The position numbers and the translations under genes are program-made. A stretch of 20,568 bases of DNA from a virus. Below are positions 3 to 6,314 of the stretch, one piece after another (positions within the stretch are counted from its first letter, which is position 1; every line of letters starts with the position of its first letter). The DNA is taken from positions 1-20,568 of the IMG/VR virus record IMGVR_UViG_3300027905_000451; one strand, given 5' to 3'. The notes beneath the pieces were generated by a model. The model was not told where the DNA came from. It made no database searches and was given only the letters and a program-made list of their open reading frames with translations.

Positions 3-737
3 GTGCGCACCGACCGGCGCACCCTCGTGACCATGGGGGCCACGGGGTCGGTGCTCTACCGCGTGCTGGCGCAGACCCTCGTCGACGGGGGGATCCTGGC
101 GGCGCCGACGATCCGCATGACGGTCTGCCGGCAGGAGGGCACGTGGTCGAAGTACCAGTACCGCGCCGCCGAGCAGACCCTGATCATCCGGTCGCGGCTG
201 CGGAACCGGCTGGTCGTGGAGGCGGCGGCACAGGCAATGAAGCCGGCGCTCGTCTTCGTGCAGAAGCTCCAGCACGGGCGGCACCTCGCCGACATGATGC
301 GGGGCAAGGGGCTGCGCGTCGAGTTCGTGTGGGGCGCGAAGGACAGCGACGCGCGCGTGCGCGCGCTCGCCAAGCTGGTGGCCGGGAAGCTCGACGCCAT
401 CGTGTGCTCCGCGATTTTCACATCTGGAATCGACATCCCGTCGCTCGCCGCCGTCGTCGTGGCGGGCGGCGGGGCCTCTCAGATCGCCGCGATCCAGCGG
501 ATCGGCCGCGGCACGCGCAACACCACGGACAAGGGCACGTTCGAGGTTTGGGACGTGCTCGATCTCAATTCGGAGTGGATGGAAAGGCACGCGCGCACGC
601 GAAAGAACGCCTACGAGCAGGAGGGCTATGTAGTCGAGGTGCTCGATCCTGAACCGCTGGCGTTGATCAGATCACCGGGGAGAACCGCACCAGACGATGG
701 CCTGTTCCCAAGCATGGATCCCCGGTCCAATAGGTAA
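3..737 (+). CDS. SF2 DNA/RNA helicase, C-terminal part (UvsW-like), 5' end outside window
   Basis: This is the second RecA-like lobe of a superfamily 2 helicase, an ATP-driven duplex or branch-migrating enzyme. Visible motifs are motif IV-like ALVFVQKLQHGRHLADMM, motif V SGIDIPS and motif VI QRIGRGTR with its arginine fingers. The Walker A and DEAD/DEAH motifs of lobe 1 are absent, so the gene almost certainly begins upstream and the GTG at position 3 is only the first in-frame start-type codon. With UvsY-, gp32- and gp46/47-like genes nearby, a UvsW-like role in recombination-dependent replication is a reasonable inference. The last 55 codons (from 573, Glu-Trp-Met-Glu-Arg-His) are lower in GC than the preceding part and match a second, diverged copy at 1320-1475 beyond the HNH gene. 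The present C-terminus therefore looks imported. The helicase family call is firm; the exact subfamily is not. Confidence 0.85.
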   Translation: MRTDRRTLVTMGATGSVLYRVLAQTLVDGGILAAPTIRMTVCRQEGTWSKYQYRAAEQTLIIRSRLRNRLVVEAAAQAMKPALVFVQKLQHGRHLADMMRGKGLRVEFVWGAKDSDARVRALAKLVAGKLDAIVCSAIFTSGIDIPSLAAVVVAGGGASQIAAIQRIGRGTRNTTDKGTFEVWDVLDLNSEWMERHARTRKNAYEQEGYVVEVLDPEPLALIRSPGRTAPDDGLFPSMDPRSNR

Positions 738-785
738 ACAAAAGTGGGCCCCCTTCTAGCCGCAAGGCATGGTATACAAACAGCC

Positions 786-1298
786 ATGCCGGTAATGCCG
801 CGCCCACTCGTTGAACGGTTCTGGCCAAAGGTAGAAAAGACGGAGACGTGTTGGCTATGGCAGGGCGCCCGTTATTCAAACGGATATGGAAACATAGGCT
901 TGGTAGGACGCCGTGGAGGCAACCGGCTGGTACACCGGGTTTCATGGGAATTGCACTTTGGCCAGATACCCCAAGGACTACTGGTTTGCCACCGTTGCGA
1001 CGTAAAAGCTTGCGTTCGCCCCGATCACCTGTTCCTTGGGACGCAGGGGGACAACATGCGAGACATGCGCGCTAAAGGGCGGGCGGCACACAACGACGGG
1101 AGGGCGTTCAGGGCCTACAACGCGGCGCGTGTCTACCCGCGTGGGGCTGGTCATCCCTCTACGAAACAAGCAGACATCACCCAGGTACGTGCGCTTCGCT
1201 CCGAGGGGAAGCTTCTACGAGAAATCGCCGCCGCAACAGGGTATTCAATCACCCACGTTGCGGGAATTTTACGAGGGGAGCGACGCAGGCTGGGGTAG
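786..1298 (+). CDS. HNH homing-type endonuclease with C-terminal helix-turn-helix
   Basis: This is a free-standing HNH_3-type nuclease. The core reads CWLWQGA near the N-terminus, then LVHRVSWELHFG, LLVCHRCDVKACVRPDHLFLG and the GDNMRDMRAKGR tail typical of phage HNH endonucleases. Paired Cys residues and the His/Asn-type motif would form the beta-beta-alpha-metal site. The last 45 residues (SEGKLLREIAAATGYSITHV) resemble a helix-turn-helix DNA-recognition module. I chose ATG 786 because the family usually begins a few residues before the FWPKV segment. GTG 744 and ATG 798 are in-frame alternatives and none has a strong ribosome binding site. Base composition is lower in GC than the flanking replication genes. 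The gene lies exactly between two copies of the helicase 3' end and shares their reading frame. It most likely mobilises itself by cutting an allele of the helicase gene that lacks the insertion; that target is inferred. Confidence 0.85.
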   Translation: MPVMPRPLVERFWPKVEKTETCWLWQGARYSNGYGNIGLVGRRGGNRLVHRVSWELHFGQIPQGLLVCHRCDVKACVRPDHLFLGTQGDNMRDMRAKGRAAHNDGRAFRAYNAARVYPRGAGHPSTKQADITQVRALRSEGKLLREIAAATGYSITHVAGILRGERRRLG

Positions 1299-1475
1299 AT
1301 CCTCGCCGACGAGGGCAACGAGTGGATGGAGCGCCACGCGCGCACCCGCCGGCGCAGTTACGAGGACGAGGGCTTCGTCGTGCGGGTCGTCGAGGACGAC
1401 CGGGCCCCGCTGCTCCAACCCACGGCGCGCGTGCGCCCGAAGCCCCACGACGACGGCTTCTTCCCCCCGATGTAG
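1299..1475 (+). pseudogene. Displaced second copy of the helicase 3' end
   Basis: Starting directly after the HNH stop codon, and in the same frame as both flanking genes, this stretch reads ILADEGNEWMERHARTR, then YEDEGFVV, and ends DDGFFPPM and stop. It parallels the intact helicase C-terminus (EWMERHARTR, YEQEGYVV, DDGLFPSM), but codons and several residues differ, so it is not a recent tandem copy. Its GC content matches the upstream helicase body better than the C-terminus now attached. It is best read as the original helicase 3' end, cut off when the HNH cassette arrived with its own replacement end. It has no start codon or ribosome binding site of its own, so it is probably untranslated. 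Confidence 0.8.
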
Positions 1476-3865: not shown

Positions 3866-6314
3866 GCCGAAGGTGGAGGGCCTGCCGTACAACTTCGCCG
3901 GGGCCTTCGAGCGCCGCGTGGCGTGGCTCTGCTGCACGTCGCCGGGCTTCATGGGGCGCTGCGGACACGCGCTCGACGCCGTGTGCCTGGCGGCCAAGGA
4001 GGCGGTCCTGGTGGTTATGGCCGCCCAGGCCATCTTCAAGGACCACGGCGCCGGCCCGCGTGACTGGGCGCTCGTGGAGCAGCGCCTGGCCGGGCAGCGC
4101 GAGCAGGGCAAGATCACGCACGAGGCCATCCAGGACGCCGGCCGCTACCTCGACGCCGACCTCGATCCGCCGACCGACCCTCCCGAGGAGGCCGTGATCG
4201 CCGAGCTGGTGCCGTTGCTTCGGCAGCGCATCATGCTCCAGATCGCGACGACGGCTTCGGCAGCCTACGCGAAGGGCGGGAAGGACGATCGCAAGATCGC
4301 GGAGTTGCTGAACCTCTCCGACGGGCTTGGGCGGGCGGATCAGGGCGCCGGCGTCCGGATGGGCGTGGCCTCCTTCGACGAGATCGAGCACATCCGCCAC
4401 CTGCAACACCTCCCGACCGGCATCGACGAGTTGGACTTCATCCTAAGCGGCGGCCCGGCGCGGGGGACCTTCAACGTCGTGATGGCCGGCGCGAAAGTGG
4501 GCAAGTGTCACGCAAAGGGACAGGGGGTCCTTCTCGCGGATGGAACCATTCGGAAGGTGGAGGACGTACGAGTAGGCGATCTCCTCATGGGCTGGGGGGG
4601 GTTCCGTAGGGTGTTGGCGACGAATCGGGGTCGTGGGGAGATGTTTGACATCGTGCCGAAGCGGGGCGCTCCTTGGCGGGTGAATGCTGATCACATCCTG
4701 ACGCTCGTGCGCACCGGTGTTGGCGGAGAGATGGTGGACGTTTCCGTGAAGGAACTGGGAACGTGGTCTGCTAAGCGGAAGCGAGCCTTCATGCTGACGC
4801 GATCTCCAGGAGTGGAATTCGCGCAAACTTCCCTGCGTCAGCTTCCACTCGATCCCTACTTTTTGGGGGTCTTGCTCGGGGACGGGTCCCTAGGGGGGAA
4901 GAGCCCTTCGATCGGTGTTACGACGGCTGATCCGGAAATCGTGACAGAGCTACATGCACAGGCCGCACGTTACAACCTCCGGGTACGCCCCGCGTCTCTT
5001 AGGTACGCGCCTACCTACCGGCTTTCGAGGATTCCGGAATATGCGCCGCATCCGACTACCCGGGCAGGAAGGCGGAAAAAGGGGGTGAAGAAGGTGTGGA
5101 ACCGCGTTACTACTCGGCTAGAGAGCCTGGGTCTGCGCGGAAAGACTTCGGGGGACAAGTTCATCCCACAGGCCTATCGGGTGGCGGACCCAAATTCCCG
5201 TCGGCAGATCCTGGCCGGCCTGATCGACACCGACGGCTACTTGGCCAAGGCCGGCCTGTCCCCCGCTTATGAGTTCACGCTCAAGTCTCGTCAGTTGGTA
5301 GAGGATATTGCCTTCATCGCGAGAAGCCTCGGGCTCGCAGCCTCCCGCGTGGTTGCGTGTCAGAAAACGTGCCAAACGGGGGCGGTGGGGACGTATTACC
5401 GCACCCGGATCTCCGGGGAGATCGAGCAGATCCCGGTGCGTGTAGCGCGGAAGCGGGCGCCGCCCTTTCAGAGGAAGCGGAAGGACGTGCGGAAGGTTTC
5501 GTTCACGGTCCGCCCCGCTGGGGAAGAGGATTACTACGGGTTTACCCTCGACGGGGACGGGCGTTACCTACTTGACGACTTCACCGTGACCCACAACTCC
5601 ATCTTCATGACGCACTGCGCCGCGCAGGCGATGATGCTGGGGCTCAACGTCTGCGTCGCCACGCTGGAGCTTTCCGTCGCCGAGTGGTTCGTGCGCGTGA
5701 AGTCCAACCTCACGGGGATCCCGATCGACGCCATCAAGGACGGGTCGATGGAACGCGCCCGCGAGATGTTGGCCGGCCGGCCGCTCGGCAACCTGGTGGT
5801 GAAGTGGTTCCCGAGCCGCGGCACCGGCGCCCGGGAGATCATCCAGTGGGTCGAGGACGAGGAGCAGCGCGCGGGCGCCCCGGTTTCCCTCTGCACGGTC
5901 GACTACCTCCAGAAGCTGAAACCGCGTACCGAGCCGGGGGGGAAGCGGTGGGATTCCCTCGGCGATGCCACGGACGAGCTGCGCGACTGGTCGATGGCCA
6001 AGAAGATCTGGACGTGGACCGGGGCGCAGCCACAGCGGGGCGCCGGGCAGGAGCGCGGGAAGAAGTCGAGCGGCGCCTCTCGCATCGGGACCGACGACGT
6101 GGCCGGGTCCATGGAGATCGTGCGGAACGCGGACCTCATCGTCACCCTGACGGGCGTAGACGACGACAAAATCGAGTACTACATCGCCGGCGGTCGGTAC
6201 GGCGGCACCGGGCGCGCGACGCCGGCCTTGCGCCACGAGTTCCCCTGCGCGCAAATGGTTCCACTCAACCGAACGCTGCCCGGGGCCGAACCCACGGGCG
6301 ACCTACCCTTCTAG
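3858..6314 (+). CDS. dnaB: Replicative DNA helicase, DnaB/RecA-fold type, interrupted by an intein
   Basis: The precursor is 818 residues; removing the 364-residue intein leaves about 454, the normal DnaB size. The start ATG 3858 overlaps the previous stop and has a G-rich binding site (3845-3851). Residues ~1-180 are a helical N-terminal region, poorly matching the usual DnaB primase-binding domain. The RecA-like domain begins LPTGIDELDFILSGG. Walker A is AGAKVGK joined to S after splicing, Walker B is LCTVDYLQ, and a motif 4-like loop GGRYGGTGR lies near the C-terminus. It should unwind DNA 5' to 3' ahead of the polymerase encoded downstream, with the primase at 6750. No helicase loader gene is seen nearby. 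The protein ends GDLPF, a tip similar to those of single-strand binding proteins. Confidence 0.93.
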   Translation: MAEPKVEGLPYNFAGAFERRVAWLCCTSPGFMGRCGHALDAVCLAAKEAVLVVMAAQAIFKDHGAGPRDWALVEQRLAGQREQGKITHEAIQDAGRYLDADLDPPTDPPEEAVIAELVPLLRQRIMLQIATTASAAYAKGGKDDRKIAELLNLSDGLGRADQGAGVRMGVASFDEIEHIRHLQHLPTGIDELDFILSGGPARGTFNVVMAGAKVGKCHAKGQGVLLADGTIRKVEDVRVGDLLMGWGGFRRVLATNRGRGEMFDIVPKRGAPWRVNADHILTLVRTGVGGEMVDVSVKELGTWSAKRKRAFMLTRSPGVEFAQTSLRQLPLDPYFLGVLLGDGSLGGKSPSIGVTTADPEIVTELHAQAARYNLRVRPASLRYAPTYRLSRIPEYAPHPTTRAGRRKKGVKKVWNRVTTRLESLGLRGKTSGDKFIPQAYRVADPNSRRQILAGLIDTDGYLAKAGLSPAYEFTLKSRQLVEDIAFIARSLGLAASRVVACQKTCQTGAVGTYYRTRISGEIEQIPVRVARKRAPPFQRKRKDVRKVSFTVRPAGEEDYYGFTLDGDGRYLLDDFTVTHNSIFMTHCAAQAMMLGLNVCVATLELSVAEWFVRVKSNLTGIPIDAIKDGSMERAREMLAGRPLGNLVVKWFPSRGTGAREIIQWVEDEEQRAGAPVSLCTVDYLQKLKPRTEPGGKRWDSLGDATDELRDWSMAKKIWTWTGAQPQRGAGQERGKKSSGASRIGTDDVAGSMEIVRNADLIVTLTGVDDDKIEYYIAGGRYGGTGRATPALRHEFPCAQMVPLNRTLPGAEPTGDLPF
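4506..5597 (+). mobile_element. Intein with LAGLIDADG homing endonuclease in the DnaB Walker A loop
   Basis: This is a 364-residue in-frame insertion. It starts at Cys217 (CHAKGQGVLLADGTI, splicing block A, with VEDVRVGDLLM) and has a block B-like NADH at residues 60-63. The two endonuclease motifs are FLGVLLGDGSL and ILAGLIDTDGYL. It ends with block F YYGFTLDGDGRYLL and block G TVTHN, directly before the extein Ser. The nucleophiles are therefore Cys1, terminal His-Asn, and Ser+1, a complete set for protein splicing. It splits GK from S in the P-loop, so helicase ATPase activity depends on splicing. GC content is lower than in the exteins, consistent with independent acquisition. Confidence 0.93.

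Follow-up and report, generated by a model that had tools for sequence, protein, structure and literature searches.

A UvsW-like helicase gene in a phage genome fragment carries two diverged copies of its 3′ end, one joined to the gene in frame and one stranded behind an HNH endonuclease gene. This arrangement is best explained by a mobile cassette, comprising a foreign helicase 3′ end together with the HNH gene, that probably inserted into the helicase gene and left the native end downstream as a relic. The arrangement is real and recurrent, and it is a phage version of a kind of element known from fungal mitochondria. The window analysed here, meaning the whole stretch of DNA, is a linear virus record of 20.6 kb with a replication module aboard (DnaB-like helicase, primase, sliding clamp, DNA polymerase I, SSB, SbcCD and a ParB-like protein).

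Two helicase ends around an HNH gene

The start of the contig truncates the helicase frame, and the 5′ part of the gene lies off the contig. The HNH_3 frame behind the helicase (Table 1) is open from a GTG at 744, and family matches begin near the ATG at 786; its product has a reading frame of its own, an intact motif and a helix-turn-helix-like C-terminal region. The orphan tail lies directly 3′ of the HNH stop, a TAG at 1296–1298, and has no start codon of its own. The locus shares two features of the fungal-type mobile ORF: an endonuclease ORF directly behind an in-frame, diverged end, and the native end kept downstream.

Table 1 Features of the helicase–HNH locus, in positions of the window
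Feature	Positions	Strand	Evidence
UvsW-like helicase, C-terminal half (ORF)	3–737	+	PF00271 E 4e-10; phrog_9690 E 4e-35
Native helicase body, RecA-like domain 2	3–545	+	PF00271, phrog_9690; GC3 174/181 (96%)
Attached (replacement) helicase C-terminal tail, in frame	546–737	+	Aligns to family tails; low GC3, 38/54 (70%), counted over 573–734
HNH_3 homing-type endonuclease gene	786–1298	+	PF13392 E 3e-14; phrog_1872 E 6e-32; GC3 103/170 (61%)
Orphan (native) helicase C-terminal tail	1299–1475	+	58 open codons; aligns to helicase tails; GC3 52/54 (96%)
Inferred insert (replacement tail plus HNH gene)	555–1298	+	Length a multiple of three

An earlier note on this DNA had proposed that the helicase 3′ end is present twice around the HNH gene, and direct comparison confirms it. 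The attached and orphan tails share 49% identity over 55 residues (blastp E 2e-14), and their Smith–Waterman score of 141 lies far above the scores of 5,000 shuffles (mean 24, sd 4.6, maximum 49). Both tails align with the C termini of other phage helicases. The layout given in that note stands, but the orphan does not start at 1320 as it had placed it: homology begins at 1299–1302, and the left edge of the insert falls near 546–555, uncertain by ~10 nt.

Uninterrupted relatives and base composition

Single-protein searches (the helicase, its tail, the next gene and the DNA polymerase in IMG/VR, and the helicase in GTDB genomes) returned no close relatives, and a nucleotide search of cultured phages gave no match. 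Using a degenerate pattern in which QRIGRG is joined to the tail W-M, followed by a two-sequence profile built from the window and L174, we found six relatives representing five distinct helicase alleles, 40–47% identical to the window helicase: L174/L179 (one contig), the near-identical L175/L176, L177, L178 and L180. Each of them ends in one tail, which is not immediately followed by an HNH_3 gene; in several, recognizable homologues of the genes that come next in the window lie behind the helicase. The uninterrupted allele that the earlier note had suggested looking for therefore exists in related phages at this level of identity. Joining 3–557 of the window to 1299–1475 restores an open frame that is collinear with these relatives apart from two extra residues; joining after codon 552–554 leaves one. 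The orphan tail is not nearer than the attached tail to these 40–47% identical relatives: L177, L178 and L180 match the attached tail at 46–54% and the orphan at 33–42%, in a comparison limited to the only relatives found. The donor of the attached tail may have been a phage of the same broad group, judging from these identities.

Base composition distinguishes the two tails. The earlier note had described the attached copy and the HNH gene as lower in GC and the detached copy and the helicase body as GC-rich, which GC3 confirms (70% and 61% versus 96% and 96%). The attached tail differs from the body (p 6e-7) and from the orphan (p 5e-4), with no difference between attached tail and HNH gene (p 0.26) or between orphan and body (p 1). 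Because the attached tail matches the HNH gene and the orphan matches the body, the segment from ~546/555 to 1298 is best read as one foreign insert between native flanks, with its tail substituted for the native one. Fitted with two segments, GC3 is split best at 414 and nearly as well at 546; the break at 414 is due to an isolated patch of AT-rich codons at ~411–437, over the helicase motif SAIFTSGIDIP. The rest of the body is GC-rich, including the stretch from the end of the patch to 545, and the patch is possibly a separate conversion tract. Among 294 long genes from GC-rich loci, 7 show a GC3 drop of this size in their final 54 codons, a count that may include the cases themselves, and drops this large at gene ends affect about 2–5% of genes generally. 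Because neither a donor allele nor an uninterrupted relative more than 47% identical was found in these searches, the foreign origin of the insert rests on composition and divergence.

The window and its relatives also contain inteins. An intein of ~364 residues (4506–5597) interrupts the DnaB-like helicase gene of the window at its Walker A motif (GKCHAKGQ...HNS), with a GC3 of 259/364 against about 0.9 in its flanks, and the relative L180 is interrupted by an intein at this position too. Among relatives of the UvsW-like helicase, an intein sits at Walker A in L174 and immediately ahead of the DEAH box in L175/L176; both inteins contain weak HNH_3 matches in the open frame. The same helicase gene is thus invaded by different HNH-bearing elements.

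Gene ends repeated around other HNH genes

To assess recurrence, we collected 79 IMG/VR loci with relatives of the HNH gene, plus other PF13392 places in those contigs and in the helicase contigs, and looked for same-strand direct repeats between the protein regions flanking each HNH gene (low-complexity masking, E < 0.01). A version of this survey run without masking was discarded, as its matches were mostly GC-rich noise. Direct end repeats are present at 9 of 123 HNH places, the window included, versus 4 of 234 control genes comparable in size. One of the four positive controls is itself an AP2-like HNH endonuclease gene with the same layout (L013; phrog_374, E 8e-63), which leaves 3 of 233 controls (p 0.004; p 0.01 with the window left out). 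The enrichment is modest, and five to six of the nine positives survive inspection. All 11 HNH places in ten cultured-phage loci lack the layout.

Inspection yielded four further clear cases, all in IMG/VR phages. Two are tails in the same direction as the HNH gene. In L038, a phrog_503 gene ends VLQFTPKQLQSIEAIDVIRRAL, the HNH gene overlaps this end, and the orphan VFQFTPKQLMMIETIEWLRAQL lies directly after the HNH stop; in L228, the attached end GPLPATIADTMTLLKKYGD is followed by the HNH gene and, ~dozen bases after its stop, by the orphan GPLPATIAETMTLLRKYGGN. The third, L027, has an antisense HNH gene between the attached tail NAALQSLLTALANYGLVTDSTTA and the orphan NNTLANLLTALADNGLIINNTTA; it shares one phage contig with L228 and involves a different gene. 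The fourth, L185, is a mirror case at a 5′ end, also with an antisense HNH gene, in which an orphan lysozyme start accompanies an intact lysozyme gene (PF00959 E 9e-14) with a new start.

These cases repeat the compositional pattern of the window. GC3 of the attached end is below that of the body in L228 (9/19 versus 200/237), L027 (12/23 versus 767/837), L185 (23/39 versus 86/102) and L038 (17/36 versus 126/162), with p 0.002 or less each; it is also below that of the orphan in all four (p 0.03, 0.05, 0.18 and 0.32). The shift goes the same way in every clear case: the end joined to the gene is low in GC3 and resembles the endonuclease gene. We also considered readthrough of the HNH stop in the window into the in-frame orphan and rejected it, as the orphans of L038 and L228 are in another frame than their HNH genes; the in-frame placement in the window is probably chance.

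L046 is a probable head case of 12 residues only. Its HNH protein begins with MLRLPPKKIAVT, 12 residues similar to those that open the next gene, MIRLPPRKVACT (L046:3971–4509), as if the old start had been taken over by the HNH gene. In L013, the AP2-like gene lies between two ends of a long opposite-strand gene of 730 codons, whose end HQExKHDQPGGRSTxSxSR is duplicated on both sides of the endonuclease gene, and an HNH_3 gene lies directly beyond the orphan end (L013:4448–5544); these are perhaps two insertions side by side. A 14-residue match at this HNH_3 gene was not counted. Nor were L056, an array of similar genes, and L075, where neighbouring genes are similar. Near 4037, several neighbouring copies of PADLVKAAxCFxC lie in L056 on the strand opposite the HNH gene, which looks more like an array of repeats than a swapped end. 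Short genes whose ends resemble one another (PPEGEQP, PSPEGEQP) form another array at L041:5045–6700 and are probably tandem paralogues.

Origin of the layout and related mobile elements

Several other histories could place two gene ends around an HNH gene. Ordinary recombination may have swapped the helicase end plus whatever lay behind it, making the HNH gene a passenger and its cutting irrelevant; nuclease genes do occur at phage recombination boundaries, as described in PMC10448857. We consider this passive mosaicism unlikely. In the three same-strand tail cases, the right edge of the replaced segment is either at the HNH stop or no more than about a dozen bases away, and HNH genes show the layout more often than other genes do. 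A second history, in which the helicase tail was duplicated locally in tandem and the HNH gene was captured later between the copies, draws some support from the closest match of each window tail being the other one (71% over 24 core residues), in a set with no relative above 47% identity. Under duplication, the attached copy should look native and the orphan should be decaying; composition shows the opposite, making this history highly improbable. The earlier note had held that grouping of the two copies would indicate tandem duplication; this does not follow, as a native-like orphan beside an outlier attached copy is the reverse of the prediction.

The contig is metagenomic and could in principle be an assembly chimera of two related phages. 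Such a chimera would need composition to switch twice, each time at the edge of a feature, and other contigs show the same layout; we give it very little credence. Least plausible, and barely worth entertaining, is a spliced group I or group II intron with an HNH ORF that joins the helicase body to the downstream tail. Phage group I introns often house HNH genes, and the insert is a multiple of three in length, but most of it is coding and its 5′ part encodes a good helicase tail that has a separate stop. An Rfam search for introns gave no match at E 1 or better in the window and none at the gathering threshold in four other cases. An intein was rejected because separate stops at 735–737 and 1296–1298 leave no continuous frame through both exteins. 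Composition, the uninterrupted relatives and recurrence with other HNH and target genes instead support what the earlier note had proposed, an invader that arrived with a 3′ coding end of its own, the displaced one remaining downstream.

We infer that such a cassette would home by double-strand-break repair, with cutting near the junction, loss of the target site and the relic serving as a homology arm. It would have entered the helicase gene ~50 codons before the stop, so that the helicase reads through into the imported end at full length and the native end, now severed, becomes a relic right behind the HNH stop. During co-infection, the HNH enzyme would cut uninterrupted helicase alleles near the insertion point, and break repair would copy the tail and the HNH gene from the donor with the gene body as left homology arm. 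On the right side, the copy may be joined just after the HNH stop or may pair with a relic tail acting as right arm. The divergent new tail would abolish the target site while the gene keeps working. The tight right edge suggests that the cut falls at the insertion point.

Introns and inteins reach the same result, a lost target site in a gene that keeps working, by splicing. Several other elements partly resemble the helicase cassette. In phage Aeh1, the endonuclease gene mobE sits inside the essential gene nrdA, which remains functional but is split into two working pieces; the window locus instead has one full-length hybrid and a relic. Phage 21 and e14, which integrate into icd, carry a replacement 3′ coding end, rebuild the end of their target gene and displace the old one; unlike the HNH element of the window, they are based on an integrase and attachment sites and reside in host chromosomes. 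The seg and mob genes of T4 are, like the HNH gene here, free-standing endonuclease genes outside introns or inteins, and they spread by intronless homing, in which break repair co-converts the flanks; in the review text searched, their cut site lies away from the insertion site or endonuclease gene, and no carried replacement end with a relic is described (PMC2988022).

The closest parallel is in fungal mitochondria. Mobile ORFs in Glomus atp6, atp9, cox2 and nad3 supply a foreign in-frame C-terminal end with an endonuclease ORF behind it, the native end is left downstream, the two ends are strongly diverged, and the hybrid genes are transcribed (PMC3630166). The likeness to the Allomyces atp6 element that the earlier note had drawn is borne out, the mobile ORF of Allomyces macrogynus having the same layout as described in that article. 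The fungal elements encode LAGLIDADG or GIY-YIG enzymes and have close uninterrupted relatives and some RNA data; those described here are HNH_3 genes of phages. Antisense and 5′-end versions occur among the phage cases and are not described for the fungal ORFs in PMC3630166.

A search of the open-licence literature with limited terms found no phage report of the replacement-end layout and no description of its 5′-end and antisense forms. Our results show, in several independent cases, that a peculiarity of mitochondrial DNA in fungi also exists in phages, where selfish endonucleases reshape essential genes at their ends. Recent homing events and their exact sites can be found by a simple signature, the relic of a gene end next to an endonuclease gene. 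Recurrence in several phages makes the layout look like a general alternative to introns and inteins. We propose, tentatively and as somewhat less than an even bet, that HNH-group phage endonucleases commonly move as end-swapping cassettes (a tail or head plus the HNH gene, in either orientation), with the relic as second homology arm for repeated, splicing-free homing into intact coding genes. If so, such cassettes would be a third general harmless route into coding genes, besides introns and inteins, and would give rise to hybrid phage genes.
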